Assembly: GCA_032622095.1 (NCBI GenBank)
Contig: CP136069.1
Coordinates: 128,259,123-128,323,122, forward strand
Length of the DNA stretch: 64,000 nucleotides
Source of the DNA: Siphonodentalium dalli
Lineage: Eukaryota; Mollusca; Scaphopoda; Gadilida; Siphonodentaliidae
Reading direction: 5' to 3'
Under the pieces are notes generated by a model. The model worked only from the letters and a program-made list of their open reading frames with translations, ran no database searches and was not told where the DNA came from. The position numbers and the translations under genes were made by a program. Position 1 is the stretch's first letter. Every line of letters starts with the position of its first letter. Shown piece by piece: positions 4,591 through 59,690 of the stretch.

Positions 4591-4991
4591 TTAACCCTTT
4601 ACCCAACAAACCGGCCAAAACCGGCCAAATAAAGCTTCAACAGCCTAAAATATCTTCGGTCTGTCTCAATAGAACCATACAAATATGGATATCATTGGAA
4701 CCGGCTCCTTGACCACATTGTGATAGTTACAGTTATGCCCTGTGCCAATGCATTCTTTTATATATGCGAGTCGACCATAGGTCGCCTCGCATATATAAGA
4801 GAATGCATTGGCCTAACAAAAAATCTGTTTTTAACACTTTTTACCATTTTTTCTTACATTCTTTAACAATTTTATATATTTTTTTGTGTTAAGCCAATGC
4901 ATTCTCTTATATATGCGAGGCGACCTATGGTCGACTCGCATATATAAGAGAATGCATTGGCACATGGCCCTTCTGTTGGGTAAAGGGTTAA
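4591..4991. mobile_element. TTAACCCTTTACCCAACA element with LINE fragment and two palindromes
   Basis: The ends are inverted repeats TTAACCCTTTACCCAACA and TGTTGGGTAAAGGGTTAA, with TTAA outermost. Inside, in order, are a LINE C-terminal fragment (4649-4738, minus) and two 69-bp near-palindromes (4744-4812 and 4893-4961) separated by a T-rich spacer. The LINE-to-palindrome junction is the same as at 31917-32091. The ends mark a DNA-type element. How it came to hold LINE sequence is unclear: capture, or insertion before the LINE piece was copied. Confidence 0.75.
4649..4738 (-). pseudogene. LINE C-terminal zinc-finger fragment
   Basis: Read on the minus strand this gives HICMVLLRQTEDI, matching the longer fragment at 31717-32005, where the frame continues as GDEFHYLLEC, the C-terminal zinc-binding region of non-LTR retrotransposon polyproteins. 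Here the homology stops abruptly after the codons for TEDI. It is far too short to function. Confidence 0.65.
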
Positions 4992-7900
4992 AAAAGAACG
5001 GGAGATCGACCAAATGACGTGGCGTACATGACCTCCTGTGCGTTTGCTAACGGCGGGTAACCATGTGGGAGGGTCTCACCACGGAGAGGAGAGCGCATCA
5101 AACGGATAACAAACTTAAAATAAGCCAGTGGGCTTGTTGTTTAATTCCCTTTTAATCATTCCATTTATTTACTATTATATTTACTTATATTGGAATTGAT
5201 GTTATTTACCTACATGTATGCTTTCGGGATTGTAAAATAAATATGTTTACACTAAGAATAGACCATTCCGATGTACACGTTTTAACGTTTTATGGAACGT
5301 TTTATAGCATGATCCTACCCTTATTCCATCAATAAACCCATTATATAAATTGTGATATGAAACGTTCGTCGCATAACAGGAAATAGTGCCAGGTGACCTT
5401 TGACTTCCGGTTTGTCGTCTGTTTATATTGCGTACTCTACGTCTAAAAAATATAAATATTTTTACAACAAGCTCTAATGAATGAAGAGTTTGAAAGGTTA
5501 TTTCATTAAATTTACGCCATTAAATACGTCAAATAATCTTTATTTATCTAGGACTATTTCTTTAACCGGGTAAACTATGCATAGCTACGTGAAACGTCAT
5601 CACATGCCTTATAGAAGCCGATGTTAGTTTCACGCCCCATTGTTGATTTAAATAAGTTTTATCAATGTTTTTGGATCATGTAATAAATAGAATCTACAAC
5701 TCGTCCCAAATTTATAGCGGAATTTACAAAACTAACCAGAATTTTGACTTTTATCGAACAAGCAAATATACCTAATTTTAGAACAACCTTGACAATAAGT
5801 ATCTAAAACATTGGATAATTAATTTTAACTGTCATCCAATTGAATAATACATTTCAGAATTATATATTATATTATCATGACAAATTAGGAAAAAAAAGAA
5901 AAAATTACATAAATATTTCCTTGGTGTTTTCTCAGTTGACAACCGATCTTCACGCGGAAAGTGACGTCACATTACAAAACGCTCGCAGTTACACCACCTC
6001 GGCGGATCATTCCATTCATTGCCCATTGTAGCCGAGCGTAACCAATGGAATCGCCCCCAAATCGTCGTCGTTATATATCTGCGAGCAGCGACCATAAATA
6101 AATGGGTTGTCAGTCTCGCCCGGTATAAACCACTTGGACTATTTATAAACTCCACCGATGAACATCACCGCTTGGTGTACCTGGTCTTTTCTTCGTCAGT
6201 TATCGTTGTTCGAATCGTCGGTTGCATATTAGGTCTTGAACGCGGATTCAAATACACTGCGTTAGTAGAAAACCCAGGACCGGCATTCTACAGAGCCATG
6301 TACGCCAAACGGTATATATATACTTGGTATATTTTCCATGCCGTGTGTGACTTAAACTAATTTTATAGTAATACAGTTTTCCGCTCTTACTTTGGATCAC
6401 CCAACCAACCAGTTTATGTACGGCTTATGACAGCCCAACGCACTATACACCTCACCGACTGACCCACTCTGGAATTGGTCTAAATGTGTGCGCATAATTA
6501 ATAAGCCTATATGTTTATAGCAACATGAGACGGCTTAATGTTCAATAACATTCGCAGCATCTCCATAAGTTGCATCTTCCAATCATTGCCTTATTGTTTT
6601 CGGAAGGTATTGTCGGTCAAAATATTAATCGCTATTTGTTGGGTAGCAACCAGACGCTATAGTCTGCCAGCCAGGTTACGATATGACGCGTTGTGTGGGT
6701 CTCTTAATCATTAAATGCAAACATATAACGGCTATGACCTCGTATAGCTCGTGTCTAGTCAAGTTACCCTGATACTTACTCGAGTAACCAAATTGCGAAT
6801 ATGTTTACAAGCGCGAATCCTGAGTCAATCAACGTGTTATGTTGTGACTCAGATTATACAGATTATCTTATTGGAAAATACGTATTGTCATAACTGTTAT
6901 ATATGTGTAGAGTTATCCCGTTCATTGAGAAATCACCCCATTGCATGTAGAAACCACTGGAAATCACCTGACAAACTTGCCGAGATACACGTACGTGTGT
7001 TAGGTTACCTCAACTGAGCGTGGAACACAAATCAACGCTCATCGGGATTGGAAACAGCTTCGTCGCGGCTGGTCGGTTTGTGTTGGCCTGATTCACATTA
7101 CTAACTGGGTCACTTGGGACATCCAGTGTTGATATAAATCAGACAGATTCGTACAATATTTAGAAGAGTTTCACTTTCACACGTATAGACCTTCGGAAAA
7201 CATCCCAAGTATCGAATTACTGGGGTATCGCTCACAGTGCATTTCAGTGGGTGACCTTCGGAAAATATTGACACTGGCATATAAGCACGTATACATGTCG
7301 CAAACGCAGTGAAGCAATCCAGAATCGATTACTCTGCAGCGTCGTTTTAAATGGTGTGTTAGTCACATAGTGGAGAATTATCACCTGGACCGAATGGTGA
7401 TGGCAATCATTTGATTGTACGATATTGGAAACATGTTGTGATTTCATCATATGAGTGGCACATGCTTCAGTGCACTAAATAAACCACGTTATACATCGAT
7501 ACTGCAAACACTATAAACAGCAATCATCATGCCCATTCATGCCATTGGAATCATTAATGACTACTGCAGTTAATATTGATACAAGAAAATGCATGCATAT
7601 ATGATCATATGGCGAAGTGTACACAGCTGATGGACATAATGAGTGGCAAAAGGCACATATCAGTATCACCCCTGGTTAAGTGGTCCTGCAAATTTGCCAC
7701 GATGTTCGTTGGTCATGCTGAATAGATATGATGCTGTTGGGGTAAAATTATGCTTTTAAGAAGAAGTGTATTTCATATTATAAATATCGTCGCATCGAGC
7801 CCCTGCCTTATTATCTTACAGCGGACTTGACGCCCAGATGCTGTGGCTGGATTTTTCGTCAAATTTTAAACGACTTTATCATACAACTCGATACAAAATG

Positions 7901-8384
7901 TTACATTTATCGGTTTATCAGAAAGAGCGATACTTTACGGTCATAATGATGTGTTATAATCTAACTGCTGTGTTAAATTACGTACAGGATATACCATGTA
8001 ATTTGGGAGTAACCTCACATTTGATCTGTTTGTTTACGTATATTATAGAGAAGACCCGAACTTTTGCGAAGCTCGCGACGTCAAATGATTTTGTATTCTT
8101 TTGAAATTATGTAAACAGTATGATAAAATAAAAAAAATCATATTAAATTACTACTTTCAGTTGACAACTCTTCTTCAGAACAAATATAATGTTTTCTATG
8201 GAATAAACCAAGTTACTGTCACAATTGTGACCTTTTTTTTACAATCATTGGTGAACTTAGTTGAGCGGGCGATTTACGTTTAAAGTCCACTATAGAAAAC
8301 TAAGGCAACCGTACTTCGACGCAAACCAGCATTTTCCCTATAAATTCCACAAGCTGGTTTACGACAAAGGAAACATGGGCTGTC
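4992..8384. other. unassigned intergenic DNA
   Basis: About 3.4 kb with no recognisable gene. The longest frame (6019-6360, plus, 113 codons) has no family resemblance. It contains NPGP but lacks the upstream acidic residues of a 2A peptide. No RNA gene or clear repeat was identified, apart from a loosely repeated gaccttcggaaaa at 7191 and 7254. Confidence 0.5.
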
Positions 8385-8600
8385 TTAACCCTTTCGTGAC
8401 TGGAGCTTCGCCGATGCAGCATTACATATCTGATGCCCCATATGGAGCCTCGCATATATAAGAGAATGCACTGGCTTACAATGTCATTGTAAATATTGTT
8501 AGGTCAATGTATGCGAGTTCCCTATGGTAGAATCGCATACATAAGAGAATTCATTGGCATTTCGCAATATCTCAGGAATCTCCAGTCATGGTAAGGTTAA
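8385..8600. mobile_element. TTAACCCTTTCRTGACTGG element with worn palindromes
   Basis: Inverted ends TTAACCCTTTCGTGACTGGA and, on the other strand, TTAACCTTACCATGACTGGA enclose two degenerate forms of the 69-bp palindrome (tatataagagaatgcactgg and a diverged partner). Related elements lie at 24385-24618 and 24786-24937, with halves at 20390-20466, 32838-32930 and 53995-54115. TTAA at both ends suggests a TTAA target site. Confidence 0.75.
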
Positions 8601-8988: not shown

Positions 8989-9490
8989 TTAAAGGCACGT
9001 GCGGCCTTAATTGTCGAAAATATTCATATTTGTTCCAAACACCGTAAACAGAAAAACATTAAAACGCATACAGTTCCGTTCATATATACCATGACCATCG
9101 CGTAAACAGCATGTTATCATAAAGATTTACTATATTTTACCTAAGCAAGAGCCTGATTGTGTTACAGAAGACAACACAATGCTGCTGGCTAATCACACAC
9201 AAATGGCATAAACGCTCTTTATTCGTTCCATATCAGGAATCCACCCACAAAGAACGCTCTTTATGTTTACCATCATAATATAAACAAACACCAGAAAAGT
9301 AACTTTTTAGGCTGTTGTTTACATAACAATGGTCAAACATATGACCATAACATACTGTTTATGCGATATTTCTTATTTGTATACGGACAAAGTCTATCTA
9401 CATTTTGATGTTCTTTCTGTTTGTGGCGGTTTTTGACAGGTGGATATATTTTCACAGGATACCCACCGCCAAGGCCGCACGTGCCTTTAA
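8989..9490. mobile_element. TTAA-flanked AGGYACG MITE, copy 1
   Basis: A 494-bp element bounded by TTAA on each side with inverted ends AGGCACGTGCGGCCTT and its complement. It is closely similar along its length to 57514-58014 (same orientation) and 20781-21280 (opposite), and more distantly to 45734-46230. The centre carries two aacgctcttta boxes 42 bp apart (9211 and 9253). There is no coding capacity. TTAA targeting is typical of piggyBac-type elements, so a piggyBac-like MITE is the leading inference. Confidence 0.88.
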
Positions 9491-10372
9491 CACTAATGAA
9501 TCCTTTGTCTGTCATAATGCTGAATGGTAGATGGTGTTGAGTGGTATACATGTATTATCAAGTAACATTGGTATGATTAAAGGCGTTTATACACGGTATT
9601 TGAAGGTATGGGCATAATTTTTATAGATGTTAGATGTTAAATAAAACAAACTTATTAATTAATTGTGACGGAGACCAGAAAATGAGGATTTAATTTGGCA
9701 ATTTGTTTTTATTTGGCTGAAAAATATTAACCAAAATATTGTTCGGCCCAGCGTGAACACTGTTACCGGTGGTCGGTGGTTTCTACGCGTGAATGGATTT
9801 CCCGTGGTCAAGCGACTGAACCGACGATAAACAAATCCTGCGTATGTGACAAAAGTCAGGTGAGATAAACAAGTTCAATGTCGTCTATGTATTCACTTTG
9901 CAAACATTTGGAAATAAACCCCCTCCAGGCAAAATGTATCCAAGGTGACTGATTAGAGTCGCCTATATGGCTGATGTCTCTCGTTTGTATATGGATTTGC
10001 TCGGCAAATAAACCGCGCTCTGCGCTAATATTATGACATGAATAATCACCGTATAGGTATATAAAATTATCGTAAAAATATCTGCCCTTTCTAAATTGAA
10101 GAACGTGTGTAAATTGAACGCATGTACAATGTTGTCCAGTCTAGTGTATATACTTTAACGTGTAAATTTGTGTGAAAATACACTTACGTGAATCTATTAG
10201 TTTGACTATGTTTGTTGCTATACGTGTATATTTATGATAGGTTTACCGTTGCTATGGACTCCCCGTCAATGATTCCTACCAATTATTCAAATGTTTCCGC
10301 TTCCCGTGTTAATATAGCATGATAAATAATGGATATTACCACAGCTGTCAATCAACTAAATATGACCAGATA
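9491..10372. other. unassigned intergenic DNA
   Basis: No recognisable gene or repeat was seen. Confidence 0.5.
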
Positions 10373-11522
10373 TGTGACCCGCCATATCAAATCCAGTCGT
10401 AAGTCGGGATTTTTTACCCTGTGCCAATGCATTCTCTTATATATGCGAGTCGACCATAGGTCGCCTCGCATATATAAGAGAATGCATTGGCCTAACAATT
10501 TTTTACAATTTTAATAATTTTTTTATTGTATTCTTTAACAATTTTATAATTTCACCCATACAGAACCCCAGACAAACATGAGCAGACGACACTCTTCTAT
10601 ATGCTTCTATATATGTGTGAGGCTCCCTGCAGGGAAAGGCAAAAAAGGTTTTGGTTCTCAGGCCCTGCCGCATTGAATAAAAAGGGCCGCATTAGGCCTT
10701 TTTATTGCAATGCCTGATGTTATGACAAAAAAACTTACGAAAAAATAAATTTGAAAAAAAAAGAAGAAAAAAATTCGGGATTTTATCATCATGTCCATAG
10801 CAGATATGTGTTGAATATTAGTGTGCATTGAGCTCTAACATGTAATGTGTTAAAATGTGACCTGCAGACTTACAACATGAAGTAGATGACTACAATTCAG
10901 AAAATGATTAGCTGATCCTCATGCTCTTCTTACAATTAGTCATTGTGAACAACTTACAATAATTGTAACTTTATACAATTGAAAGGCACAGGACTAAATT
11001 CAGGATAACATATTAGAATGGGGAGGTATCAGTTTTTAGACAACAATAATAGTAGTTAATGTCAGGGGCATTATATATTGTTAGGTAAATAAGGTAATCC
11101 CAGTCATACACTGGTAGTACAATGTCATTTTTATATAAGACTAAATGAGTTTATATGCATAACAGTTCCCTCTACCTTTCTGGTTATTACTAGACAGAGG
11201 AAGGTATCTTTGTCCATGCTTACAATGCGCAGAAAAAAAATAAAAATAAAACCCTCCCTCCCTCATTGATTTGAAAAAAAAATTGCCCGAGAACCAAAAC
11301 ACTTTCTTTTTTTTGGCCTAATGGATGTTTTTTATTTTATGTCCTAAAAATTGTAAGAAACGTTTATTTAAAAAAAATGATAAAAAATTGTTAGACCAAT
11401 GCATTCTCTTATATATGCGAGTCGACCATAGGTCGCCTCGCATATATAAGAGAATGCATTGGCACAGGGTAAAAAGTTAAAAAAATCCCGACTTACGACT
11501 GGATTTTATATGGCGGGTCACA
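10373..11522. mobile_element. TA-flanked TGTGACCCGCC element, long copy
   Basis: Terminal inverted repeats begin TGTGACCCGCCATATCAAAT and extend through cagtcgtaagtcgggatt and a 69-bp palindrome at each end (10423-10491 and 11395-11463). TA flanks both sides. The 50701-51120 and 59229-59690 relatives are only 420-460 bp; the extra length here is a nested insertion at 10635-11318. TA flanks suggest a Tc1/mariner-type MITE. Confidence 0.88.
10635..11318. mobile_element. element nested inside the TGTGACCCGCC MITE
   Basis: About 684 bp interrupts the sequence that reads ctgcagggtaatgg in the shorter relatives (50960-50973, 59484-59497). Its ends are imperfect inverted repeats: aggcaaaaaaggttttggtt on the left, and aaccaaaacac followed by a T-rich stretch and ggccta on the right. 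The interrupted site contains TA. No open frame inside is recognisable. Confidence 0.75.
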
Positions 11523-19670: not shown

Positions 19671-20389
19671 TCTTTGATTATCACACGATGCCATGCTTTT
19701 CAAAGGGTGCTGTTTATAATACCAATATCAGCACAAATCAATTCAAGCTCGGACTATCGTGACTCTATCGGTACGGTTTACTCAAGTATGAGAATACCTA
19801 TATACCCATAATGCATTCGCCCATTGGTCCACGGGTTATTAAAATCTCCAAAACATCTTACACCTGTGGCGTAAATAAGACACCGAAAGCGCAAACATGG
19901 CTAGCACAAAAAGCCACTCTCGCCTTGGATACAGATTCGGATTTCAAGTCAAATCGCGTTCGTTCATCGATTAATATTGTCTCGTCCTTGACTACTCAAG
20001 TGAGGCGAGGCACGCGGTTTTATTTATGCACGCATAATAAATTTGCCTTTCAAGAATTGGGCACACAGGTGCATTAATGAGAATTAATCGTTTCCCTGAA
20101 AATTTGGCACGTATTCACTGTCGATAACAATTGTATGTTAGTTTTGATCAGAATAAATAGTATGTGACCCTCAAGGCGTTCGCGATGTAAATAGAAAGTT
20201 ATTGGAACTTCGCCGATCAAACAACAATTAACAAAATGCGCGATTGTAACCGCATCAAAATTTATACACGCTTGTCCTAGAAGAACAGTTTTCATGCATG
20301 CTTGGTAATTTTTACAAATATATATCACGGGGTAGGAACTTCTCCGCGGAACAGACTCCGCTGTCGATTTTTGGTCGAGTTGGAGACTC

Positions 20390-20466
20390 GCATAATTATA
20401 TAAGAGAATGAACCGGCACATGATCTTTAATGCTGCACCAGCGCATCTCCCGCCATGAATGGGTTA
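20390..20466. mobile_element. half of a TTAACCCTTTCRTGACTGG element
   Basis: A right-half fragment: cgcataattatataagagaatg (palindrome half), then ttaatgctgcaccagcgcat and a terminal ccatgaatgggTTAA. The equivalent right half is intact at 24540-24618. Confidence 0.55.
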
Positions 20467-20780
20467 AGTAATATCGAGAGTTTAGAGTGTGAATGTGTGG
20501 AGGTACTGACTCAGTATGTGCTCATATATAGCTTGATATATGCGTATATATCATTCCTTTTCATAATGTTCATAAAATACGAGTCTCGACACTTGGTATC
20601 GATGGTACATTTACGCAATCGGCCATTTTGATAACTTACTTGAAATTCGCTCAGTATTATTTTTCATTCAGTTTTACATTGGCGCACTTTGATTTTGCAC
20701 ACCCTGATGCGCGAATTTAAAACTCACAAAATATTTCCGAGGAAACCATGTATCCGACGGCACGCAAAGTTATGGGGTCC

Positions 20781-21280
20781 TTAAAGGTACGGTTGGCCTT
20801 GGCGGTGGGTATCCTGTGAAAATACTTCCACCCATCAAAAACCGCCACAAACAGAAAGAACATCAAAATGTAGACATACTTTGTCCGTAAACAAATAAGA
20901 AATATCGCATAAACAGTATGTTATTGTCATTTGTTTGGCCATTGTTATGTAAACAAAAGCATAAAAAGTTACTTTTCTTGTGTTTGTTTATATTATGATG
21001 GTAAACATAAAGAGCGTTATTTGTTGCTGAATTCCTGATGGACCTAATAAAGAGCGTTTATATCATTTGTGTGTGATTAGCCAGTGACACTGTGCTGTCT
21101 TCTGTGACACAATCAGGCTCTTGCTTGTGTAAAATATAGTAAGTCTTTATGATAGCATGCTGTTTACGCGATGGTCATGGTATATATGAACGAAACTGTA
21201 TGCGTTTTAATGTTTTTCTGTTTACGGTGTTTGGAACAAATATGAATATTTTCGACAATTAAGGCCAACCGTGCCTTTAA
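20781..21280. mobile_element. TTAA-flanked AGGYACG MITE, copy 2 (inverted)
   Basis: 500 bp including both TTAA sites, in the opposite orientation to 8989-9490. Ends are AGGTACGGTTGGCCTT and its complement. The taaagagcgtt boxes lie at 21008 and 21048 (40 bp apart). Retained ends and length suggest a relatively young copy. Confidence 0.88.
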
Positions 21281-22019
21281 TCATGCATGCATTTAATTGT
21301 TGAAATTAGATATGTAAAGACTATTACACCACGATATAAATGTCATCATATTCATGCGAGCGTAGGATATAACTCTTTCGTATTTAATCATGAAGATATG
21401 TATATCTCACACTTGGCCCAAAAATCATTATGGTATTTCAATAGTTAAGGGTATCACTGACGTAAAATCGAACAAAGTAAAGTTACCTGAACGACCATCG
21501 ACAGATTGCTAACTTCAGAAATGCCAGTTCTTAATTGACATGCATAATTTGAATATTGATTATTACACAGACCCGTTTATTTTCCCAGTTTGTTCGCTGA
21601 ACTATCTGAGTCGTAATATTTTTTCGCTCAGTTTTTAATGTGAGCGCGAAAAATTGTACTGCGCGAATTTAAACATGAGTAATGTATCGGCAGCAAACAT
21701 CACGTCTCTACACATAGGAACCACGTATGGTGCTACGTGCAAATTACAAGACAATTGTGAGCAGGAGTTTGAGAAAAGAGGCATATTGAACATGACCAAA
21801 CACGGCACTAACGTGGTTATGTAACAACATGAATGTACTGGTATACCGAATACATAATCTTTTTATCTTAAATCCCTGGAAGGTTCGCATTGTCAATGTC
21901 AATATCAAGTTATTGAAATTTCGCTGCCCAACGAACAAATAAATACTTCTATACGGATGATTTCGTATCGGTATATCAAATAAAATCATACATATTTCTT
22001 TACAGCTGTCAAAATTGTA
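21281..22019. other. unassigned intergenic DNA
   Basis: No recognisable gene or repeat was seen. Confidence 0.5.
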
Positions 22020-22600
22020 CTCATTACAGGGGGGGGGGGGTGAAAAAAAAAATTCCGGCACGTATGCCGGGGTGGGTGGGTGGGTGGTCAAAGCCACCAA
22101 CAAGCAATTTTTTCCGCAACTAAAAAAAAAAATTCCTGCTTGTTTTTTAGTGTTTTGGCAATGAGTTGGGCTTCAAAACCACTTTGAATGAGAGAAATAA
22201 TGTAATTCTAACTGTAAACTGACTGCAGGCAGTTATCGTGTTGTATTTTGTTGCAAATTTTTAAATCCAAGATGGCCGCTGGCAGCCATGTTTTTTTGGC
22301 CGAATGACCTCAAAATGACTCATTCCTATTTACATGTCCATGTTAACATCCATGATAAATAGTATGCACAGAAATTCATATACAGCTGTTTACAGTGAAT
22401 TCCCCCCCCCCCCCCCGCAAATCTCTGTTTTAGTGTTAAAAGGGGGGTGGGTGTCAAAAAATGGTCGGAAAAACTGCCGAAAACAGAAAAAAAATTGGCG
22501 GTGGGGGTGGGTGGGTACAAAAAATGATCGAAAGGGAAAAAATGCCATACGTGCCTGAAATTTTTTTCCGACCCCCCCCCCCTGCTCATTACGGTATTTA
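22020..22600. repeat. poly-G/poly-C repeat remnants in opposite orientations
   Basis: Two related pieces face each other: attacagggggggggggg followed by gtgaaaaaaaaaattcc and gggtgggtgggtgg near 22024-22087, and its complement around 22537-22598. Between them are a 16-base C run (22402), gggtgggtgtc and further G-rich text. Homopolymers this long are also prone to assembly error. The apparent frames in this area are low-complexity, not genes. Confidence 0.65.
22255..22370. repeat. single diverged copy of the 164-bp array unit
   Basis: Contains, in reverse orientation to 39260-40235, the ordered landmarks aaatccaagatggccgctgg, cagccatg, ggccgaatgacc, aaaatgactcat, catgt and ttaacatccatga. It is an isolated unit far from the main array, so the sequence is dispersed as well as tandem. 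Confidence 0.75.
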
Positions 22601-24384: not shown

Positions 24385-24618
24385 TTAAACCCTTACATGA
24401 CTGGAACTTCCGGAAATTTTGCGAAAATCCTGTGCCAATGCATTCGTTTATATATGCGGAGCCTCATTTATATAAGTAATACATATACATTTTAAGCCAG
24501 TGGATTCTCTTATATGTGCACGATGCTTCCTATGGGCGACTCGCATATATAAGAGAATGCACTGGCACAGGATATTTAATGATGCACCAGCGCAGCTCCC
24601 TGCATGAAATGGTTTAGT
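24385..24618. mobile_element. TTAACCCTTTCRTGACTGG element with two palindrome modules
   Basis: The left end is ttaaacccttacatgactgg followed by aacttccggaaattttgcg; the right end carries cgcagctccctgcatgaaat and ggttta. Between are two worn copies of the 69-bp palindrome with gccaatgcattcg- and gagaatgcactggc-type ends. This links the palindrome directly to this terminal-repeat family. Confidence 0.72.
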
Positions 24619-24785: not shown

Positions 24786-24937
24786 TTAACCCTTTCATGA
24801 CCGGGGCTTCCTAAAATTATGCGAAACCCCTATTATATATGAGATATGGATCTCGAGCCTCGCATGAAAAAGAGAATACATTTTCCTAACAGTATTTACC
24901 ATTACCTTGTAGGTCATACATGCAGTGGACGGGTTAA
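24786..24937. mobile_element. short TTAACCCTTTCATGACCGG element
   Basis: 152 bp between TTAACCCTTTCATGACCGGG and gcagtggacgggTTAA. One decayed palindrome remains (gagcctcgcatgaaaaagagaa). Probably a deletion derivative of the 24385 type. Confidence 0.65.
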
Positions 24938-28769: not shown

Positions 28770-29814
28770 TTAACCCTTTCTATACCAAATACTCATTGAA
28801 GAGTACATGGTGTTCACATTGGACATGTTCATATAATAAGTTCAACAAACGACTATGTATGTCGTTTGTTGAAAACGTCGAAATTAAAGGGACGGGCGGC
28901 CTTCGTTGTAGGTTATGATTTTGAAATAACATTTATCAAATTATGATAATTTCCTCAAGAATATACCAATAGCATAGCATAACTATGATATGAAAGCGAT
29001 ATTATTAAAAAAAAACTCTTTGTTTCAGAGTAAATGCAGGTCGAGTGTTGTTTAGTTTCTTGCAAAAAGCGCAGTTAGTTGTTTATAATGCAATCACGAT
29101 ATTGCGTCATTTCCTTATTTAGATTTGTAATACTATCATAGTAAATTCTTTATTTGGTATGTATTACCATATATAGGCTAGGAGAAAATACCAACTGGAT
29201 TCAAAGATATTCATCTCTTTGCAAGAACAATTATATCATGTACACGTTTTCTGTCTGATCATTTCCCAATCATGAATGTAACGTGGATTAGTTGGATTTT
29301 GAACTGACAGCGGGTAGAATGGGTCGATTAAAATAAAATTTGATGTGACTTGATTGCGATTTTTGACGGCGCCAATAATTTTATCTTCGCCTTCCACAGC
29401 ACAACGGAACATTTTCATTGGACGATCCGGTAGTTCTGAGCGTTTGTCTATAAACAAATGGTTCTGTAACGTTTTCGATGGTTGTTTACATAACAAAGCG
29501 TACAAAAGTGACAATAACATGCAATTTGCGCGATATTTATGATTGGTATACGAACAATATCTCTATTATAAAATATTCCTTCTGTTTATAGCGGTTTTAG
29601 CGGATGTGACAGTGTTAACAGCTGTACCCACCGCGAAGCCCACCCGTATCTTTAATATGATCTGAACCTGTCCCTCCAATAAATAGGACTCCTTCTGCAA
29701 TTTTAATATCTGTCTTAATTTTTCCTGATTACCCCTCCAGGTGAATAAATGGACCATTCCAATGTATAATGTTATTACTAAGTGTGAGAATCCATTCAGT
29801 GTAGAAAGGGTTAA
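28770..29814. mobile_element. TTAACCC-family MITE split by a TTAA element
   Basis: The left part (28770-28883) starts TTAACCCTTTCTATACCAAA and carries the gttcaacaaacgac hairpin. The right part (29656-29814) continues with atgatctgaacctgtccc, ccaataaataggactcc and ends tgtagaaagggTTAA. Removing the insertion at 28884-29655 gives an element of about 270 bp, similar to 17055-17313 and 25260-25481. Confidence 0.82.
28884..29655. mobile_element. TTAA-flanked AGGYACG MITE, long diverged copy
   Basis: Ends are TTAAAGGGACGGGCGGCCTT and, at the right, acccgtatctTTAA, with ccaccgcgaagcc just inside. The right third (ggttgtttacataacaaa, ttccttctgtttatagcggt) matches the 500-bp copies; the left part is longer and diverged. 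It sits at a TTAA within a TTAACCC-family element, which shows relative age: the host MITE is older. Confidence 0.75.
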
Positions 29815-32287: not shown

Positions 32288-32394
32288 GCTTTTCTCATTG
32301 ATATTCTGCAAGTTGAAGATAGCCGTTAAACGGATATGGCTCATTTGAACTTCCAAATTGTATCTACATGATTTGGGAAGATGCATAAGATATG

Positions 32395-32682: not shown

Positions 32683-32689
32683 AATGGTC

Positions 32690-33917: not shown

Positions 33918-34389
33918 CCATCACGTTAATGGTGGTAGCCTCTCTCTTCTTCAAGCGGTGCGACTCTATCAGACCGAACCACCCGTTCGGGTACACCGGT
34001 GGAATATTAGCACCTTGAGGTCGTTTCTGCATCAAATTAGAAACTTCCTTCGCTGTCAGAACTCCATCAGTAACGTAACCAACATCTCCTAATTTCATAA
34101 TTCTAGTATATGGTTTGAATAAAAACTGGTGCAGATAATAGAGGACAACAAATATCAGCACAAGAGCAGCATAAGTTTTCCAAGAAGTAAAATCCAAAAG
34201 TTCAACACATGCTGCTAAACTCGTTGTCATTCTTAACTGGGTGTCCAGCAATGCCCGGTACCAGAGTTGTCCAACTTCGAGAAGCGGGGATTTCAGAACT
34301 TTGTCTGCGAGGGCAGCGACCAGCGTTGCACACAATCCAATTATAGTGACTCCGCACAGGAAGCGTTTTGAAAAATAACTATTGGCCAT
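33918..34389 (-). CDS. nvd: Neverland/DAF-36-type sterol 7-desaturase, first coding exon
   Basis: The enzyme converts cholesterol to 7-dehydrocholesterol and belongs to the Rieske oxygenases of the ER membrane. This exon gives the first 157 residues plus one base. It has hydrophobic segments at about residues 11-29 and 72-92, then KLGDVGYV at 99-106 and IPPVYPNGWFGLIESHRLK at 129-147, the conserved block just before the Rieske domain in Neverland and DAF-36. ATG at 34389 has A at -3 and G at +4. The frame stays open upstream to GTG at 34413 and slightly beyond, but no earlier ATG is present. The exon ends with a strong GTGAGTA donor at 33917, phase 1, immediately before an in-frame stop. Rieske (CxH...CxxH) and C-terminal exons should lie below 33900 and were not recognised. 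Family assignment is by recalled motif, without a search. Confidence 0.85.
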
Positions 34390-36644
34390 AATTTCTGATA
34401 ATTCAGAGGTCACCTGACGTGCTAGAATTCAATATATCCGCGTCTTGAGATGACGGAGCACTTACTTATGAATTGTGTGTTGGTGATTAATCCCGACAGT
34501 TACGATGAAAATTAATCCTATTACAAAACGTTAATCCGTATACCGGAAACAGAATAATGCGTCAGCACGTAGGCGATTACGGCGTTGATAAATCTCCGTG
34601 AAATTGGTGCGCACCAGGATTCCACATTAACACTGCGCTTTAAACTCCAGGATGGTAAAGGGAGAGAAAGGCACAGCGATATCAGAATGACATGCGTGTG
34701 ACCACGTACCGCGTGCACCGCACACACGATAAGGATGGAGTCAAAATCTAGTTAAGCTTAACTCTGATTCAAACCGTCGGCGACAGAGATAATAACGCAG
34801 AGCTTGTATCATAAGGTCACTTTATAAAGCTAGCACGCTCTATCATTAATATATCCGGCTAAAATGTTTACCATCGCGACGCGAAAACTCAGTCGCTGGT
34901 GCATGAAGACCATTGCTTAACAACAACCATTGATTTTATTGTGTTTTGCCTCGCAGCTCTGTGGCATAACGGCTCGGGTACGATATCGGGTAGATGATAT
35001 CGGTGAAAGCCTGTTTGCGTCCAGTGTGTCTTTAATCGTTAAGACTCGCCGTTCGGTCGTAAATCTGTGGACGGACAGACCCCCACTATCGATTTTATTT
35101 ATGTACATCTCACATAGAGTGAAAGTGTCGCTACATCTCACATATTAAGAGTGAAAGTGTCGTTGGTAAATTATGTATGTCTTGATGAATTAGTGAGGGT
35201 CGTGTTATTACATATATTATAGCTTTTACGCACGTTAAACTTGTCCCCGTATACGACAGGAATGTTCAAGGCCACGAATCTACGTCACTAATGTAATATA
35301 TAAACCGTCGCGTCTGACGTTCGGAACTCATGCCGTCGAATTCTGGTATCTGGCCTGGACCAGGTTTCGCGTAAACTATAGTAAACCAAAGTGTGCCTTC
35401 TTGTTGTCATTCAAGCCTCTGTCTGTTAATAGTTCGTACTATGTGGTAAAGTACGAGTTATGGTCACGATTCACGAAACATACACTGTAGGTAACTTGTT
35501 TGAAGCGCAAATTGGAGAAGCTTTATAGAAAACTTAATGAGATTCGTATACCTATGAAGTTGTATTATTGTGTTCTATATATAGCCCACGTTACCTGAGA
35601 ATAGTATCAGAGCACGCGCTTAACGTAACGTAAAGTGGCGCTCTCTTAAACGAAAGGCGCAATAAAAACGATTATCCGATTGGTCAGATTGTCTATCTTA
35701 ACCAATCAGATTTGACGTTGCATAGACATGGTTGTTGCTAAGCCTTGTAGTTCAAATACAGAACTCATCACCTCGGCGTTATAAGTATTTCCACAAATTA
35801 CCTATTATAACACAACAAAAGGATGAGATGAAAACTATATACATAGAAGGTGAGTGATCTAAATAAAAAATGTACTTCATATATTGTTTCGGACCGAAAA
35901 ATGTCACCAAAACACTTCTTTTACTGCGATTTGAGACGTCCGTTGTTTGAGTCTGACTTGGTTGGTGAGTTGGTCAAGGACTCAAGTTTGTGTTTGAAAT
36001 CGACAGTTTCAAACTCTGAGTCTTTGTTATTGCCGTTTATGTTTCAATGAATGATTAGCTGAAAGTTAACTTGGCAAGATAACTAGATCATAGTTGCCAT
36101 CAACTGAATGAATTTAATCGCAAAAAAATGCCTCTAATTTATCAATTATCAGCAGTCTCTGTTCCAACTCCAAAGCTTAACAACAGTTGTCATTAGCGAA
36201 GACCGGAAAAAAAATCAAAACATATTTCCGGTTATTCCAACAAGGTGAAGGACAAGGTCGGGACAATTCTCAAAACAAAAATTAAAATCCTTGAAATTGA
36301 AATGAAATTAGGCTTCATGTTGGACGTGAGGAATTATTCTCACTTCGTCTTTTCATCGTGGATTTAGCGGGCGTTAGTTAAAAATTATCTGATTCTAATT
36401 AATGGCCAGATTTCCAGTTTACACTACTCACTTGTCACAACATGATTCATGAATTCCAAGGATTGTAATTTGTACTATTTGTATATACATTCCGCTTTAT
36501 TTAATTTGAATGTGATTACTACTAGTGCTAGTTTTGTGAAAGTAACATAAATAGGATACATATATACACAGAGACACGCTTGTCCCAAACCACATATCAA
36601 CACAAGTAAGAAGAACTAAGATGGATGCTGATTGTTTATATCTC
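34390..36644. other. upstream region of the nvd exon
   Basis: This should hold the 5' UTR, any 5' non-coding exon and the promoter of the minus-strand gene. An acceptor-like CAG lies at 34414-34416 read on the minus strand, so the start exon may itself be spliced to an upstream leader. No convincing TATA box or start site could be assigned. No other gene or transposon was recognised apart from a two-unit tandem duplication at 35104-35162. Confidence 0.45.
35104..35162. repeat. two-copy tandem duplication
   Basis: A unit beginning tacatctcacat and ending gagtgaaagtgtcg occurs twice (28 and 31 bp), the second with a three-base insertion. It lies 0.7 kb upstream of the nvd start. Confidence 0.8.
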
Positions 36645-39259: not shown

Positions 39260-40235
39260 AACAATGCAGGCTACAGGTCATAACTTTGGTCGGATCATTA
39301 TGAAATTTGTCATAGCTGTTGACATCAACATTTAGACCAGAATGATTAATTTTGGGGTCATTTGGAAACAAAACATGGCCCCAGTGGCCATATTGGATTT
39401 CAAAATTCAATCCATTAGCACGGGCTACAGGCCGTACTGTTTGTCTGATCATCATGAAATTTGTCATGGGTGTTAATAATGACATGTAGCTGGGAACGAG
39501 TCATTTTGGGGTCATTCGGCCAAAAAACATGGCCGCCAGCAGCCATCTTGGATTTTACTCTTTGTATGACTAAATCCTTTAGCACGGGCTACAGGTCGTA
39601 CCTTCAGTCTGATCATCATAAAATTTGTCATGGTTGTTGAAATTGGAATGTAGATGGGAACGAGTCATTTTGGGGTCATTCGGACAAAAAAAATGGCCGC
39701 CAGCAGCCATCTTGGATTTTACTCTTTGTATGACTAAATTCTTTAGCATGGGCTACAGGTCGTACCTTTAGTCTGATCGTCATAAAATTTGTCATGGATG
39801 TTATCGATGACATGTAGATGGGAACGACTCATCTTGGGGTATTTTCGCCCGAAAACATGGCCGCCAGCAGCCATCTTGGATTTTACCCTTTGTATGACTA
39901 AATGTTTAGCATGGGCTACATGTCATACCTTTAGTCTGATCATCATAAAATTTGTCATGAATGTTAATAATGACATGTAGATGGGAACGAGTCATTTTGG
40001 GGTCATTCGGCCAAAAAACATGGCCGCCAGCAGCCATCTTGTATTTTACTCTTTGTATGACTAAATTCTTTAGCATGGGCTACAGGTCGTACATTTAGTC
40101 TGATCGTCATAAAATTTGTCATGGATGTTAACGATGATATGTAGATGGGAACAACTCATTTTGGGGTCATTCGGCCGAAAACATGGCCGCCAGCAGCCAT
40201 CTTGGATTTGACTTTTCTCTTCATGTCTATAAACT
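39260..40235. repeat. 164-bp tandem array, six units
   Basis: Units are marked by gggctacaggtcgtac at 39271, 39425, 39589, 39753, 39916 and 40080, i.e. spacings of 154, 164, 164, 163 and 164. Each unit carries tctgatcatcataaaatttg, gacatgtagatgggaacga, cattttggggtcattcggcc and atggccgccagcagccatct. The first unit is shorter and more diverged, as expected at an array edge. Short frames in the array are artefacts. Confidence 0.93.
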
Positions 40236-43622: not shown

Positions 43623-45402
43623 GAGAGAGAGAGATGTTTTATTGCCTCCTTGAAGGAGAGATATGTGTACAGGTATATACATGTTTATGAATACAACAGT
43701 GACATTCAAACTAAATCAATTTCACTTATATGAGGTTGGTTGACCTTTTGCATTGGTCAGATGGAGCAAAGGACACACACAAATATGAGACAATGAATAA
43801 ATAAGCGTTTCTCATCACACATGAGTTCCAGAGTAGGATGACTTCCACATCCACATGCATAAGTGAGGAATCCTACCGGCGAGAGTAAATCCAGGAATGA
43901 AAATGTAGGAATTCCGAATATGTTTATGATTTTATACCAGAATTCATTTCTGAGTTCCTGTATGTGCGGAGAGAAGCAATGGAGGTACATGTGTGACATG
44001 AGGTCAGAGTATTGGCACCCGCAGTGCTTGCATAGTGCGTTGTTGTCATATGTCGTTCTGGAGATGATGTTTGCCATATAGAGAGCTTTAGATTTGTACT
44101 TTGGGTGTTCCCTGCATAGTAGCCAGCCTCTCCAGATCGACATAGGATAGGATTTAACCATCCTAAAGAAATTCAGTGATTCATTTGTCAAATCACACCA
44201 TGGTGCTTGATATGCGAAGTTGTTGATCTTCTCTTTTACAATTTCTTTCCATTGTTTCTGTGATGGAAAGAACCCAGAATCAATAAAATTTGTGAGGTAA
44301 TCGATGAGATCATATGCGTGCAGGTGTGTGAATATTTCCTTCGCAAAGCCAGAGAGGGGCCGTTTATAGAGGAGGTGGCCCTGAACATTGAACAGAAACA
44401 CTCTTAGAGCATCGCGATGAGTGTTTGGAATATTTATTAGTGTTCCCAAGAATAAAAGTTTTTTCCGGTCTACTTCGACATGCAGTGGTGTTAAACCAAG
44501 TAATGACAGTGAAAGTTCTGTACTTGTTCTAGTAGGCAGACATTGAATATGTTTTATACACATACGATAGACTCTCTCAAGTTGCAGAACTTGTGTATTT
44601 GTCAGGCCATACCACATTTCACATCCATATAATGCCTTGGGGATTACTACACATTTCAAAATTTCAAGAGCAGACGAGGGAGTCAGGAATTTGGTGATTG
44701 GCGATCGGCATGCACCGAAGAATGTCCTTCTTAGCATTTCACATGCTCTGTCAATATTTCGAGATCTATCAGACCGATTATTTTGAGGGATACCAAGGTG
44801 AATAACGTCTTTGACTTCATTCAGAGTGTTCAGTCCGAGAAACCATTTATGTTCTCTCGCTGGAGCGTTTGAGCGTTTACGAGTGTCAAAGACGATAATT
44901 TCGCTTTTAGCAAATGAGTATTCAAATTTCCACGTTTTGCTGTACTTATAACATTTATTCAGAAGACTTTTTAAGCCACCTTCTGAGTAAGAAAGAACGC
45001 AGACATCGTCGGCAGTTGTCGGACATGAACACGAGATTGAATCTATATGAGCGCCCTCCGGTGATAATGAGAGTTCCTGTAGGAGGTCGTCTATATAGAT
45101 AAGGTACAGGAAAGGGGACAGAACACCCCTTGTCTTGTACCTTGCTCTATGGTGAACGGTTCTGAAAAATAGCCAGCATATCGCACTTTGCTTTTGATCT
45201 CCGAGTACATGGCAGCAACAACTCTAAGCATACGCCCTCCAAGGCCTTTCTGCATTAATTTATAGAGTAGTCCTTCGTGCCATACTCTGTCAAAAGCTTT
45301 TTGTGAATCCAAAAATGCGGCGTATACCTTAGAATTGTTGAGATGTGCATATTCGACGACATCTTGGAGTATATATGAGGTTACTGGGCAGCCAACCAGC
45401 CA
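43623..45402 (-). mobile_element. 5'-truncated LINE retrotransposon
   Basis: A minus-strand non-LTR retrotransposon copy of 1780 bp. The 3' end has AATAAA (in ggcaataaaacatc) and a (CT)n tail abutting the direct repeat at 43622. The 5' end is truncated inside the reverse transcriptase domain, before palm motif A, so endonuclease and ORF1 are absent. It is flanked by 121-bp direct repeats differing at two positions. Clade not assigned; the C-terminal layout suggests a polyprotein with a CCHC-type Zn finger as in many CR1/Jockey/I-group elements. Confidence 0.88.
43757..45402 (-). pseudogene. LINE reverse transcriptase, truncated and frameshifted
   Basis: It encodes the palm and C-terminal part of a non-LTR reverse transcriptase. 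Motif A is AFLDSQKAFDRVWHEGLL near 45290-45320. Motif B is GTRQG near 45130. Motif C is TADDVCVLSYS near 44990-45020. Downstream lie the IPKALYGCEMW region and a Zn finger CKHCGCQYSDLMSHMYLHC (C-x2-C-x9-H-x4-C, near 43970-44030). The frame is continuous from about 45115 to the stop at 43757. Just upstream, a one-base deletion in a G run (about 45122-45128), within the motif B/GG-LSP segment, puts the motif A part in another frame. It cannot make active enzyme. Confidence 0.88.
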
Positions 45403-45733: not shown

Positions 45734-46230
45734 TTAAAGATACGGGCGGCGTTGGCGGTGGGTATGTGTTCAAATATTCACCTCCGTCAAAAACCGACAT
45801 AAACAGAAAGAATCGTAAAATATAGACAAAATTTGTTCTTATAGCAATCAGAAATATGGCATAAACAGTATGTTATTGTCAATTTCCCCCCTATGTTATG
45901 TAAAAGAAAAAAACGTTACATTACCTGGCTTTTGTTTAGATCCGGATATGGTAAACATAAAGAGCATTATTTGTTACTGTTTTCCTGATATGAAAATAAT
46001 AAAGAGCGTTTATATCATTTGTGTGTGATTAACCATTATAATTGCGCTGTGTTATATAAACAGAAGCACAACTTCTGTAACACGAGCAGGCTTGACGACA
46101 ATATACTATTTACGCGATGATTATGTTTGGCATATGAACAAAACTATATATATATTTTAATATTCCTTCTGTTGATGGCGATTTGAACAAATATGAATAT
46201 TTCTGCAACGAACGCCGCCCGTGCCTTTAA
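45734..46230. mobile_element. TTAA-flanked AGGYACG MITE, copy 4 (inverted)
   Basis: 497 bp including the TTAA sites. Ends are AGATACGGGCGGCGTT and, at the right, aacgccgcccgtgcct. Same order of landmarks as 20781-21280 but more diverged. Boxes taaagagcatt (45958) and taaagagcgtt (46000) are 42 bp apart. Confidence 0.85.
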
Positions 46231-46479
46231 TACTTCATATTCTAATTTCCAAAATTGTTCCACATTACGGTTGTAAAAAATAATATGGATAAACTCCGCA
46301 CGAACTGGCTTCTGGAAAATTAAAAAAAAACAATAAAAGGTCGGAGACCAAAATGTTCCCTGACGAAGGTGGCAGATTTGAAGAATTAATGGGTTTCAGA
46401 TCCCTATACTACAAACTGTAGGAGGAATTGATTACACCAATATGATACAAAGTGCATATTCAATAAATGTGTTGAACAT

Positions 46480-50700: not shown

Positions 50701-51120
50701 TGTGACCCGCCATATCAAATCCAGTCGTAAGTCGGGATTTTTTTTACCCTGTGCCAATGCATTCTCTTATATATGCGAGTCAACCATAGGTCGCCTCGCA
50801 TATATAAGAGAATGCATTGGCCTAACAATTTTTTACAATTTTAATAATTCTTTCTTGTATTCTTTAACAATTTTATAATTTCACCCAATACAGAGCCCCA
50901 GACAAACATGAGCAGACGACACTCTTCTATATGCTTCTATATATGTGTGGGGCTCCCTGCAGGGTAATGGATGTTTTTTTATTTTATGTCCTAAGAAAAA
51001 TTTGTTTTAAAAAAATGATAAAAAATTGTTAGGCCAATGCATTCTCTTATATAAGAGAATGCATTGGCACAGGGTAAAAAAAATCCCGACTTACGACTGG
51101 ATTTTATATGGCGGGTCACA
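50701..51120. mobile_element. TA-flanked TGTGACCCGCC element, short copy
   Basis: 420 bp with TA at 50699-50700 and 51121-51122. The left palindrome (50755-50823) is full length; the right one (51033-51068) has lost its centre and is a 36-bp perfect remnant. The element lies inside the LINE ORF1 pseudogene. Compared with 10373-11522 it lacks the 684-bp nested insertion and shows the empty site at 50960-50973. Confidence 0.9.
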
Positions 51121-53103: not shown

Positions 53104-54850
53104 AGCTCATCTGAGACGAAGTATGCGGTGGAGCTATAGTCATCACTCCTCGTCCGTCGTCCGCCCGTCCATCCATCCGTCCGTCCGTCAACAATTCTTT
53201 GAACATCTTCTCCTCTGATTACATTGGACGGAATGGGTTCATATTTGGTGTGGATGTTCCCTAGGTGAATCCCATTCAGATTTGTTCAAATGAGGTCACT
53301 GGGTCAAATAGTTGCGAAGCCAGGGCCATAACTCTTTCCCTCCATAGTATTTATTAAAAACAACTTCTTGTCTAGAACCATTGGTCCGATTTAGCTTATA
53401 TTTGGTATGAAGTGTTCTTGAATGACTAGGGTTCAGATTTGTTCAAATGAGGTCACCAGGTTGATTAGTGAGAAACCAGGGCCATAACTCTATTCCTCAT
53501 AGTAATTCTTAGAATGACATCTTCTCAAGAAAGATTGGGCCGATTTAGCTTATATTTGGTACGGAGGGACCTAATGGGTGAATGGAGTTTTTTTCAAATT
53601 GGGGCACTGGGTCAAATAGGGGCAGAGCCAGGGACATAACTCTAAATACAAAAAATAACATTTTTGCATTTTGATCTTTGATTTTATTTAGACACATCAC
53701 AGCCACCCACCCCACCCCACCTCCTGTCCCTGTCTCACCATGCTGTACCATACCATATTATCTCTGCCTACTTCACCGCATTAAAATCCTTGTTTTGATC
53801 ACAGCTGTAGGAGTAACACAATACATTGGTATTGCTCTGCAAAATGTTTGTGCCATAATTAATTATCTCCATGTCAACAGGTATCCCAGACATTCTGGTA
53901 GCTGATAGTGGCTTTATGAATGGAATTTTATCCCATGTTTATCTCAGATACAAATTACCTGTTTGACAGATAAAGTTTATTTTTACTATTAATATTAACC
54001 ATTTCATGACCACAGTTGTGCTGGTGAGAGCAATGAAGACACTGTGCTTGTGCATTCTCTTATATATGCTCCCATGGGGAGCCTCCCATATAAAAGAGAA
54101 TGCACTGGCTTTCAAGGTCGAGGAATTTGTTTTAAGCCAATAGTGTCATGCATTTAAATAAATCATGTATGTCATATTCTTGCAGGGATGTCCCTACTGT
54201 GTTGGGGTGATTTACAGATGTGTTCAATGAAATGTAATTTTTGAGCTCACATCTTCTCTCGACTGAATGGGTTCATATTTGGTGTGGATGTTCCCTAGGT
54301 GACTCATATTCAGATTTGTTCAACTGGGGTCACTCTGTAAATGGCTATGAAGGCAGGGCCATAACTCTTGCCCTCCATAGTAATTCTTAAAAACTACTTC
54401 TTCTGCTGTATCATCAGGTTGAATGGGTTCATATTTGGTATGAAGGGTCCTTGGGTGACCCGGAGTTCAGATTTTTTCAAATGGGGTCATTTGTTTTAAA
54501 TGGGTTCACCTGGTCAACTAGAGGCCAGGCAAAGGACAGTTTTCCTCTTAATATGCTTCCTTCACACGGACCATCAGGTCTATTTTACTGATATTTAGTA
54601 TGAAGGGTTCTTTGGTGTCTGGGATTCAAATTTATTGAGATGGGGTCACCAGATTAAATAGAGTGGGACCAGGGACATAACTGTATGTCTCTCTAGTAAT
54701 ATTTAAAATGTCTTCTCAAAAGAGGTTGGACTATTTAGCTTACATATAGTATGGAGGATCCTTTAGTGACTGCGATTCAGATTTGTTAACATGAGGTCAA
54801 CCTGTTAAGAAATGACGGGGATATGGGGACTTCACTTAAAACATCTACCT
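53104..54850. repeat. molluscan ggccataactct repeat array
   Basis: Opens with agctcatctgagacgaagta and a (tccg)n stretch, then about eight diverged units of roughly 170 bp carrying ttcatatttggtatgaagg, cagatttgttcaaatgaggt, cactgggtcaaatag, and gccagggccataactct. This composition is, from memory, common in bivalve genomes. A TTAACCATTTCATGACC element fragment (53995-54115) is inserted within it. No coding potential. Confidence 0.8.
53995..54115. mobile_element. fragment of a TTAACCCTTTCRTGACTGG element
   Basis: Starts TTAACCATTTCATGACCACA and includes a palindrome module with a changed centre (gtgcattctcttatatatgc ... taaaagagaatgcactggc). It interrupts the ggccataactct array, so it is younger than that array. 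Confidence 0.62.
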
Positions 54851-57513: not shown

Positions 57514-58014
57514 TTAAAGGCACGTGAGGCCTTAGTTGTCGAAAATATTCATATGTGTTCCAATCACCGTAAACAGAAAAACATTAAAACGCATACAGTT
57601 TCGTTCATATATACCATGACCATCGCGTAAGCAGCATGTTATCATAAAGATTTACTATATTTTACCTAAGCAAGAGCCTGATTGTGTTACAGAAGACAAC
57701 ACAATGCTGCTGGCTAATCACACACAAATGGCATAAACGCTCTTTATTCGTTCCATATCAGGAATTCACCCACAAAGAACGCTCTTTATGTTTACCGTCA
57801 TAATATAAACAAACACCAGAAAAGTAACTTTTTATGCTTTTGTTTACATAACAATGGTCAAAAATATGACAATAACATACTGTTTATGCGATATTTCTTA
57901 TTTGTATACGGACAAGTCTGTCTACATTTTGTTGTTCTTTCTGTTTGTGGCGGTTTTTGACGGGTGGAAATATTTTCACAGGACACCCACCGCCAAGGCC
58001 AACCGTACCTTTAA
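57514..58014. mobile_element. TTAA-flanked AGGYACG MITE, copy 5
   Basis: 501 bp including both TTAA sites, same orientation as 8989-9490 and the closest to it in sequence. Ends are AGGCACGTGAGGCCTT and aaggccaaccgtacct. Boxes aacgctcttta at 57736 and 57778, 42 bp apart. Confidence 0.9.
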
Positions 58015-58121
58015 CTCCGGCACTGCTAGCAGAGGATTGTCGTGAACCGAATTGGATGTTACCTTTGTGTGACGAGAATTGAAGCAGTCAAATAGCTGAT
58101 CGTACCGAATCAGGAATTCAG

Positions 58122-58225: not shown

Positions 58226-58233
58226 GAATTCAG

Positions 58234-59228
58234 AGCTGTGTATGGCTTTTAGAGGCAGCTAACAAGATTATGTTGCTATAGCATGCAGCAGCAACTGAAT
58301 GACTCAAGCCTTGTGATAGACCCGCATCTTGGAGAAATGGTTCATATTAAGATGTTTTGGTGTTAGTTTTGGACACATACGGATTGGAAGTTTTGCATCC
58401 ATCTTGTATAAGTCATAATATATCTCAAATTTATTGTATTTCATAAGGTTATTGTGGCACTCTTAATACGATGAGGAGGGTCATAGAAACAGAACATTTT
58501 GTTACCGTTGAATGTTAATGACTAGTGTCATTTTCACTAACACCAAGCTTGAAATATGTGGACCTGTTTGTGTAACCCCGATCACATACAATACATTTAA
58601 TGTTACACCTAGCATCTTGTAATATAGGTATTATCTCAAACACTAGATATTATATTAGTGCTGCATCTGAACAACCAGATGTAAAAAATACTCTATTATA
58701 GGCTGCTTCCGTTTGACATTTAAACCTCTTACAATGAACTCGGGTGCCTTTTTTTTTTTTAGCAATTTTAGAGCTTTTAGAAATTGTGGCGTCATCCAGA
58801 CCGATCGAATCCGTGCGACTGTTGCACTTCATCTTGAGCGCTTGCTTTATTGACATCTCATCGAAACTCATGATACAACATCGATCTTTGTTACCGAATA
58901 ACTTGATTTATCTTTGAGAATGTTGATGACTACTGGATGGAAGCTTATGTCTGTTGTAAATGACCGAATCCACATTTTAACTGAACTGACAGATGGTAAC
59001 ACACAGTATGGAGAGAGTAGCCGGTATGTCTTTTGTTACTATAGTAGATAGATAAAGCCAAACGTTTGTCCTCATCTGTCAATCTTCATTCATGTTTTAG
59101 CCTTGTCGACATCAAGGCCTGACTCTGGAGAAAAACTGCTGCATTGACGGAGGAATGACTTTCACAGCAGCTTCAATTATCGCATTTGTTCGTTTTACCC
59201 GGAGAGACTGATTTTAGTTGTACTACCC
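58234..59228. other. unassigned intergenic DNA
   Basis: No gene or repeat recognised. Confidence 0.5.
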
Positions 59229-59690
59229 TTTTCCTTTCCATATCAAATCCAGTCGTAATTCGGGATTTTTTTTACCCTGTGCCAATGCATTCTTGTATAT
59301 ATGCGAGTCGACCATAGGTCGCCTCGCATATATAAGAGAATGCATTGGCCTAACAATTTTTTACAATTTTAATAATTTTTTCTTGTATTCTTTAACAATT
59401 TTATAATTTCACCCATACAGAGCCCCAGACAAACATGAGCAGACGACACTCTTCTATATGCTTCTATATATGTGTGGTGCTCCCTGCAGGGTAATGGGTG
59501 CTTTTTTATTTTATGTCCTAAAAATTGCAAGAAACATTTATTTTAAAAACATTATATACAAAATTGTTAGGACAATGCATTCTCTTATATATGCGAGGCG
59601 ACCTATGGTCGACTCACATATATAAGAGAATGCATTGGCACAGGGTAAAAAATTCCCGACTTACGACTGGATTTGATATGGCGGGTCACA
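59229..59690. mobile_element. TGTGACCCGCC element, left end eroded
   Basis: Similar to 50701-51120 from ccatatcaaatccagtcgta to ggcgggtcaca. The outermost nine or so bases of the left end are replaced. Both palindromes are full length (59281-59349 and 59571-59639), and the ctgcagggtaatgg empty site is at 59484-59497. Confidence 0.85.

Follow-up and report, generated by a model that had tools for sequence, protein, structure and literature searches.

Introduction

Miniature inverted-repeat transposable elements (MITEs) are usually defined by their ends. The subject of this study is a 69-base near-palindrome, P (GCCAATGCATTCTCTTATATATGCGAGTCGACC ATA GGTCGCCTCGCATATATAAGAGAATGCATTGGC), that recurs in a 64,000-nucleotide stretch of the genome of the scaphopod mollusc Siphonodentalium dalli (hereafter the window; assembly GCA_032622095.1, 2,226,750,531 bases in nine contigs; contig CP136069.1, positions 128,259,123 to 128,323,122). 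Text searches for P and for the end sequences that surround it returned no relevant paper, one hit being about MeCP2; literature searches on similar elements gave the CMITE families of Acropora corals as the nearest precedent. As far as their published description extends, CMITEs are ~100 bp long with a 75-base internal region and number ~1600 copies, and one of them, CMITE-IN, is a younger element that encloses an older one; the same account gives the origin of the shared core as unknown (PMC2872659). A second body of work concerns inverted repeats, where template switching between the arms is described, in the portions of these papers that treat it, as leaving homogenized arms, paired substitutions and an inverted spacer (PMC8604942, PMC8794818).

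P has 33-base arms around a 3-base center, and its stem carries one recurrent mismatch. We lean toward the view that P does not move by itself but provides a very large MITE-like group with its conserved core, which has repeatedly been fitted with new ends. This core consists of CCCTGT followed by P and then by an AT-rich spacer; in most elements a second P, inverted and with ACAGGG, completes it. At least four sets of ends are found on it, here called types A, B, D and E. Its copies were compared in a non-redundant set of 301,030 bases, comprising the window, 20 pieces of 10 kb whose coordinates were picked blind, and ten stretches from around the beginning of contig 1, chosen for containing P.

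One Core Under Four Sets of Ends

The window contains 29 half-sites (20 bases, ≤3 mismatches) against a mean of 0.01 and a largest count of 1 in 100 shuffles, and holds nine full copies of P, one 36-base copy and several worn ones (Table 1). An earlier note on this stretch, made from the sequence alone, had listed nine full copies: all are present, eight of them starting exactly where it placed them and the ninth starting at 50753 instead of 50755. The shortened copy it reported at 51033 is an exact 36-base palindrome, the worn copies it named were recovered, and the list gains a further worn P at 24857–24897. Genome-wide, the exact 27-base half-site (one position two-fold) occurs 279,479 times and the reversed pattern not once. 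Eleven of the 20 blind-chosen pieces hold P, and their 36 palindromes per 200 kb would extrapolate, by simple scaling, to ~400,000 in the genome. A half-site scan of viral_contigs gave no matches. P is predicted to fold into 32 pairs, much as the note had anticipated with its hairpin stem of about 30 bp; folded as RNA, the copy at 10423 reaches −54.3 kcal/mol (z −14.3), and the worn copy at 8417–8480 folds no better than chance. Rfam returned no matches in the window at gathering scores, and a known structured RNA was set aside as an identity for P. Along C1 735–926 kb, half-sites recur at regular ~14.5- and 11-kb steps, suggesting large tandem units.

The surroundings of P are fixed. In the usual setting CCCTGT lies outside P and CTAACA or TTAACA inside it, and an inverted second P closes with ACAGGG. 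Genome-wide, CTGT precedes 131,850 exact half-sites and TTAR precedes 126,295, so that two junctions together cover 258,145 of 279,479 (92.4%). The 301-kb set contains 60 full-length P: 51 are flanked by a CCTGT-like sequence that agrees in ≥3 of 5 letters, and the remaining nine lie in 97-base tandem arrays of one region. The set holds 169 half-sites (≤3 mismatches), of which 68 fall at recognized ends, 91 scored as inward-facing by a loose four-base rule, one lies at an edge and nine were left unassigned by rule. The score thresholds used here were too high, because the random flanks contained real copies; the nine were therefore judged by eye, seven as D-type, one as belonging to the long interspersed nuclear element (LINE) chimera described below and one as a B copy whose right flank is foreign. 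None of the 169 is a clearly free-standing P. Because so large a share of exact half-sites sits at fixed junctions, P does not seem to move alone, and the suggestion in the earlier note that the palindrome travels as a unit is not supported.

In the unit C1_540608 (merged L024–L028), direct tandem arrays of P with a 97-base period stand beside repeated D-type left ends.

The shared block exceeds P, beginning at CCCTGT and reaching into the AT-rich inner flank, and A, B and the LINE-linked copy are 86–88% identical over 131–145 bases of it. The note's other suggestion, a subterminal signal recruited repeatedly, fits better, with the amendment that the thing shared is a larger core than P. On the outer side, in all ten comparisons of type consensuses (drawn from 37 of 43 exact junctions, six untyped rows being dropped, and with the A consensus blurred by poly-T length), the last 6 to 8 bases outside P agree and matches beyond that are scattered. 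Sharing across elements of different ends and target sites, as the note described it, is borne out and reaches four end types.

The hosts are short elements of ~0.2 to 1.2 kb, seemingly non-coding. Type A has ends TGTGACCCGCCATATCAAATCCAGTCGTAAGTCGGGATTTTTTA, with TGTGACCCGCC ends adjoining TA. Among 12 A ends with a complete terminus, ATA lies directly outside in ten and TTAA in none; type A therefore lacks the TTAA target of a piggyBac-type MITE. P lies just inside all 14 A ends, and the junction between A end and P occurs exactly 18,049 times genome-wide. Type B has ends TTAACCCTTTACCCAAC with arms unlike each other, a left junction found 38,000 times, and P by the half-site test at 11 of 12 left and eight of ten right ends, the three failing ends holding a shortened P. 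Type D (TTAACCCTTYCATGACTGGAGC; in the window, TTAACCCTTYCATGAC) is old and diverse, carries two P ~28 bases apart and is sometimes arrayed. Its ends that reach the junction have P by the same test on the left in 19 of 21 and on the right in 17 of 19, and the 16 D-end matches that do not reach the junction have none; D ends are also found with young P (L018, L033). Type E (TTAACCCTTTGAGTGCCAGG), found outside the window and elsewhere in the genome, has P at its left end in ten of 12 cases and at its other end in none of 16, and its left 32-mer occurs 3,047 times. Both P-less left ends of E belong to one relative that has such ends on both sides (C1_137524 2121–2308, merged set). The pairing that the note called usual holds for most hosts; it is not universal, because E carries a single P. 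D, B and E ends all begin TTAACCCTT and show TTAA and then CC(C/T)T at both ends (e.g., B 4591–4991; E C1_109563 1451–1688), the TTAA often being mutated in old D copies. What the note had treated as one class of TTAACCC-ended elements is present in the window as two families, B and D.

A further host kind was claimed, in which P stands within a LINE-linked insertion. The insertion lies between exact direct duplications (Table 1), and its P-bearing part is a truncated B element, whose left flank shares 94.7% identity with B across 95 bases; it is therefore a duplication-flanked chimera and not a third kind of host. Its AATAAA-ended part ends in AATAAAGCATTATTA, is LINE-like by eye only, and gave nothing above cut-off in Pfam.

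Could the core itself be a transposon, with CCCTGTGCC...GGCACAGGG ends, that inserted in other transposons and was carried along? The A core does have TA on both sides (TTTTTTA before CCCTGT, TAAAAA after ACAGGG), the left flank of E ends in TA, and a relative of E without P exists. However, neither TA nor any other duplication common to them is seen at the B and D junctions, the core lies at the same place in all types with no clearly free-standing copy in the 301-kb set, E has a single P, and the P-less E relative differs beyond the core. We regard this origin as unlikely.

Origin of the Ends

The families are linked to some degree, as B seems to enclose an old D-type end inside its newer ends. 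Specifically, when the inner left part of B is set against the D-like TTAA end at 53995, the match scores 41 (in a comparison that took in the P-less E row), the best of 5000 shuffles scoring 35. It might then be argued that the four types go back to a single ancestral transposon, from which they degenerated while their ends diverged in place. The likeness of the inner flanks in A, B and the LINE-linked copy, the TTAACCCTT start common to D, B and E, and the D-like end seemingly inside B would all suit such a descent, but homology breaks off sharply 6 to 8 bases beyond P, A ends are unlike D ends (their score is reached by 1344 and 1895 of 2000 shuffles) and the A target site differs. Single ancestry is the least probable of the readings considered here, and the hosts do not reduce to internal deletion forms of one transposon, the outcome that the earlier note named as refuting its interpretation.

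At least 128 matches to the piggyBac transposase (PF13843) occur in the genome, many with long open frames, and 13 stretches upstream of them were inspected for ends. L052, L054 and L056 have a TTAACCCTTTATCTGC end and L055 the same end without TTAA; L061 has the upstream end TTAACACGTTGAGTGCC, and L058 begins inside that same sequence. The upstream end of L051 is doubtful, and the rest are without a clear end. Those of L052, L054, L056 and L061 are likely, not proven, element ends, because only one end of each was read. As regards shared terminal repeats, only TTAACACGTTGAGTGCC resembles a MITE end, that of E, and weakly. D, B and E are presumably moved by the piggyBac-type transposases of this genome; A, with its TGTGACCCGCC ends and TA sites, should need another transposase.

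Palindromes other than P also occur in these upstream stretches: L058 and L061 each contain two of 18–20 bases, arranged as an inverted pair, and L052, L054 and L056 have, by eye, the subterminal palindrome GCGACATAAGTCGC.

Variation of the Palindrome and a Proposed Mechanism

One duplicated unit (C1_540608) was excluded from the comparisons of P arms, P consensuses and paired changes. The consensus of P, in a comparison that again included the P-less E row, is identical over 69 bases in A, at both B ends and in E. That of D differs at stem pairs 30–40 and 31–39, each changed on both sides; pair 5–65 is A–T at the left D end and G–C at the right, and position 62 of the left end has a further, uncompensated difference. 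With the most diverged P, D is probably the oldest host. Across 41 distinct P, both-sides-changed cells number 39, whereas shuffles give 21.0 ± 3.3 (none of 1000 reaching the observed count) and a slid partner gives 10 to 25; D alone has 20 against 11.5 (8 of 1000 as high). The center is flipped in the window copy at 11395 and in L037 at 2405, and is deleted at 51033 and in other copies. These pair-preserving changes, center flips and center deletions fit template switching.

Selection on P offers the main alternative. The arms of P are less variable than the outer ends in A (10/738 vs 24/609 variable, p 0.003) and B (3/591 vs 20/660, p 0.001), the difference being weak in D (p 0.09 and 0.025) and absent in E (4/400 vs 4/384). 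An alternative outer-end figure for A, 36/525, was left unused, because its alignment had been made separately from P and differences in poly-T length had probably raised it; an E row that took in a P-less element was likewise set aside. Constraint in A and B would be expected if P were kept by function, as a transposase or host-factor site or as an RNA hairpin, with selection on one inherited core counting for more than template switching. The paired palindromes of L058 and L061 point the same way, as do the end palindromes of piggyBac/piggyBat, which are bound by transposase according to the part of the published account that covers them (PMC11707139). Against this, constraint is lacking in E and slight in D, E works with one P and none at its other end, and A would need a different transposase using the same site. 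We consider a predominantly functional explanation rather unlikely, although a selected cis-acting site and template switching may both hold together.

How the copies are related was also asked in the earlier note, which proposed comparing palindrome with element phylogeny. The copies barely sort by type (within-type divergence 1.84%, between-type 2.22%; 37 copies), 230 of 5000 permutations being as extreme. Concerted evolution between paired P was considered and is unsupported overall, permutations being as close in 323 of 2000 cases for A, 2000 of 2000 for B and 536 of 2000 for D.

In one A element (L043 5886–6333), two private changes recur in both P, a sign that one end may have been copied to the other; such sharing is absent from other elements.

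For the refitting of one core with new ends, we hold tentatively, as the likeliest mechanism, that template switching at P both keeps the hairpin and lets new ends be captured. DNA synthesis would switch template at the hairpin during repair or replication; the switching would keep P symmetric, through arm copying, center flips and center deletions, and would occasionally provide the core with new ends, whereupon a different transposase could amplify it. In cis, P may act as a subterminal binding site, like the short palindromes in piggyBac ends. A possible, more doubtful extension is that the hairpin core serves as a docking joint that, through template switching at its palindromes, captured unrelated TTAA/piggyBac-type and TA-type ends repeatedly, with several transposases spreading one non-coding sequence; if true, this would be a parasite changing its vehicle.

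Several results weigh against the refitting of a core and against this mechanism. The inner part of B fails to match the D consensus (131 of 2000 shuffles as good), and TTAACACGTTGAGTGCC, although it stands as far from TTAA as its counterpart in E, resembles that end weakly: in a series of 15 comparisons, the shuffling counts were 13 and 21 of 2000. A P half-site was found in none of the 13 transposase-linked stretches (best 7 mismatches of 20), in only some of which a complete end was recognized. No coding transposon with P was found, no transposase was tied to A, B or D, and no end-capture joint was seen directly. Young copies alone have no excess of pair-preserving changes (0 vs 1.0), kinship among the sequences can inflate such counts, and the two P of one element are no closer to each other than expected overall.

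Even so, the sharing of the core, its fixed junctions and its four end types are directly observed, and a very-high-copy core has stayed the same through changes of ends and target sites that seem to span the TTAA and TA types. P is a good case for asking how small parasitic DNA elements gain new ends, and its copies would provide an extensive natural archive of template switching in hairpins that are almost perfect.

Features of the Window

The P-bearing elements of the window are listed in Table 1. A separate ~500-base repeat lies at 8989–9491, 20781–21285 and 57514–58015 (92–96% alike), with worn relatives at 45734–46231 and 29485–29656. A tandem array at 39409–40213 has a 164-base unit in ~4.9 copies, pieces of which match 22263–22366. 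On the minus strand, a 488-codon frame at 43757–45223 with a weak reverse-transcriptase match (25.6 bits vs a curated cut-off of 29.6) is probably a LINE remnant. The 172-codon open frame at 33910–34428 (minus strand) gave no Pfam match; it is reminiscent of the N-terminus of a neverland/DAF-36-type oxygenase.

Table 1. Elements with P and associated features, in window coordinates.
Feature	Position	Strand	P and remarks
Type B, TTAACCC...GGGTTAA ends	4591–4991	+	inverted P 4744–4812 and 4893–4961
Worn type D	8385–8600	+	P remnants 8422–8475, 8507–8558
Type A, TGTGACCCGCC ends next to TA	10373–11522	+	P 10423–10491 and 11395–11463, second center flipped
Worn type D right end (20418–20467)	20381–20467	−	beside P half 20381–20417
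Worn type D	24386–24616	+	P remnants 24434–24458, 24496–24566
Second worn type D	24786–24911	+	P fragment 24857–24897; right limit approximate
Target duplication, left copy	31412–31441	+	exact 30 bases
Retro-insertion-like unit: AATAAA-ended part (31442 to ~31917) and truncated B	31442–32287	−	P 32013–32081, 32214–32282
Target duplication, right copy	32288–32317	+	exact 30 bases
Type D left end	32838–32918	+	half P 32886–32918
Type A	50701–51120	+	P 50753–50821 and center-deleted 36-base P 51033–51068
D-like TTAA end	53995–54109	+	P 54046–54109; end also matches inner left part of B
Type A without first nine bases of left end	59238–59690	+	P 59281–59349 and 59571–59639

Comparison With Known Systems

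As in CMITEs, an internal region is here common to families with different terminal inverted repeats (TIRs). The likeness extends, on the published description of the coral elements, to TTAA-flanked MITEs with CC[C/T]T-type ends, to tandem arrays, and to several families in which the internal region is better conserved than the TIRs, and the enclosure of a D-like end within B recalls CMITE-IN (PMC2872659). By description, not by sequence, the present group differs in its long palindromic core, usually an inverted pair, in the number of its half-sites, which runs to hundreds of thousands, in the size of its elements (~0.2 to 1.2 kb) and in its additional TA-flanked family (PMC2872659). The question left by CMITEs—the source of the shared core and the gain of new ends—can be put to the test here on a single genome, which offers copies by the hundreds of thousands.

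With piggyBac/piggyBat, P shares a subterminal palindromic position and, for B, D and E, TTAA-type ends; the piggyBac palindrome, as given in the section that describes it, is 19 bp long, whereas P has 69 bases and occurs also in a TA-flanked family (PMC11707139). With template switching at inverted repeats, P has in common homogenized arms, paired substitutions and inversion of the center. The published cases, as those accounts present them, concern the arms of one repeat, whereas an exchange of transposon ends by that route is what we infer for the scaphopod core (PMC8604942, PMC8794818).

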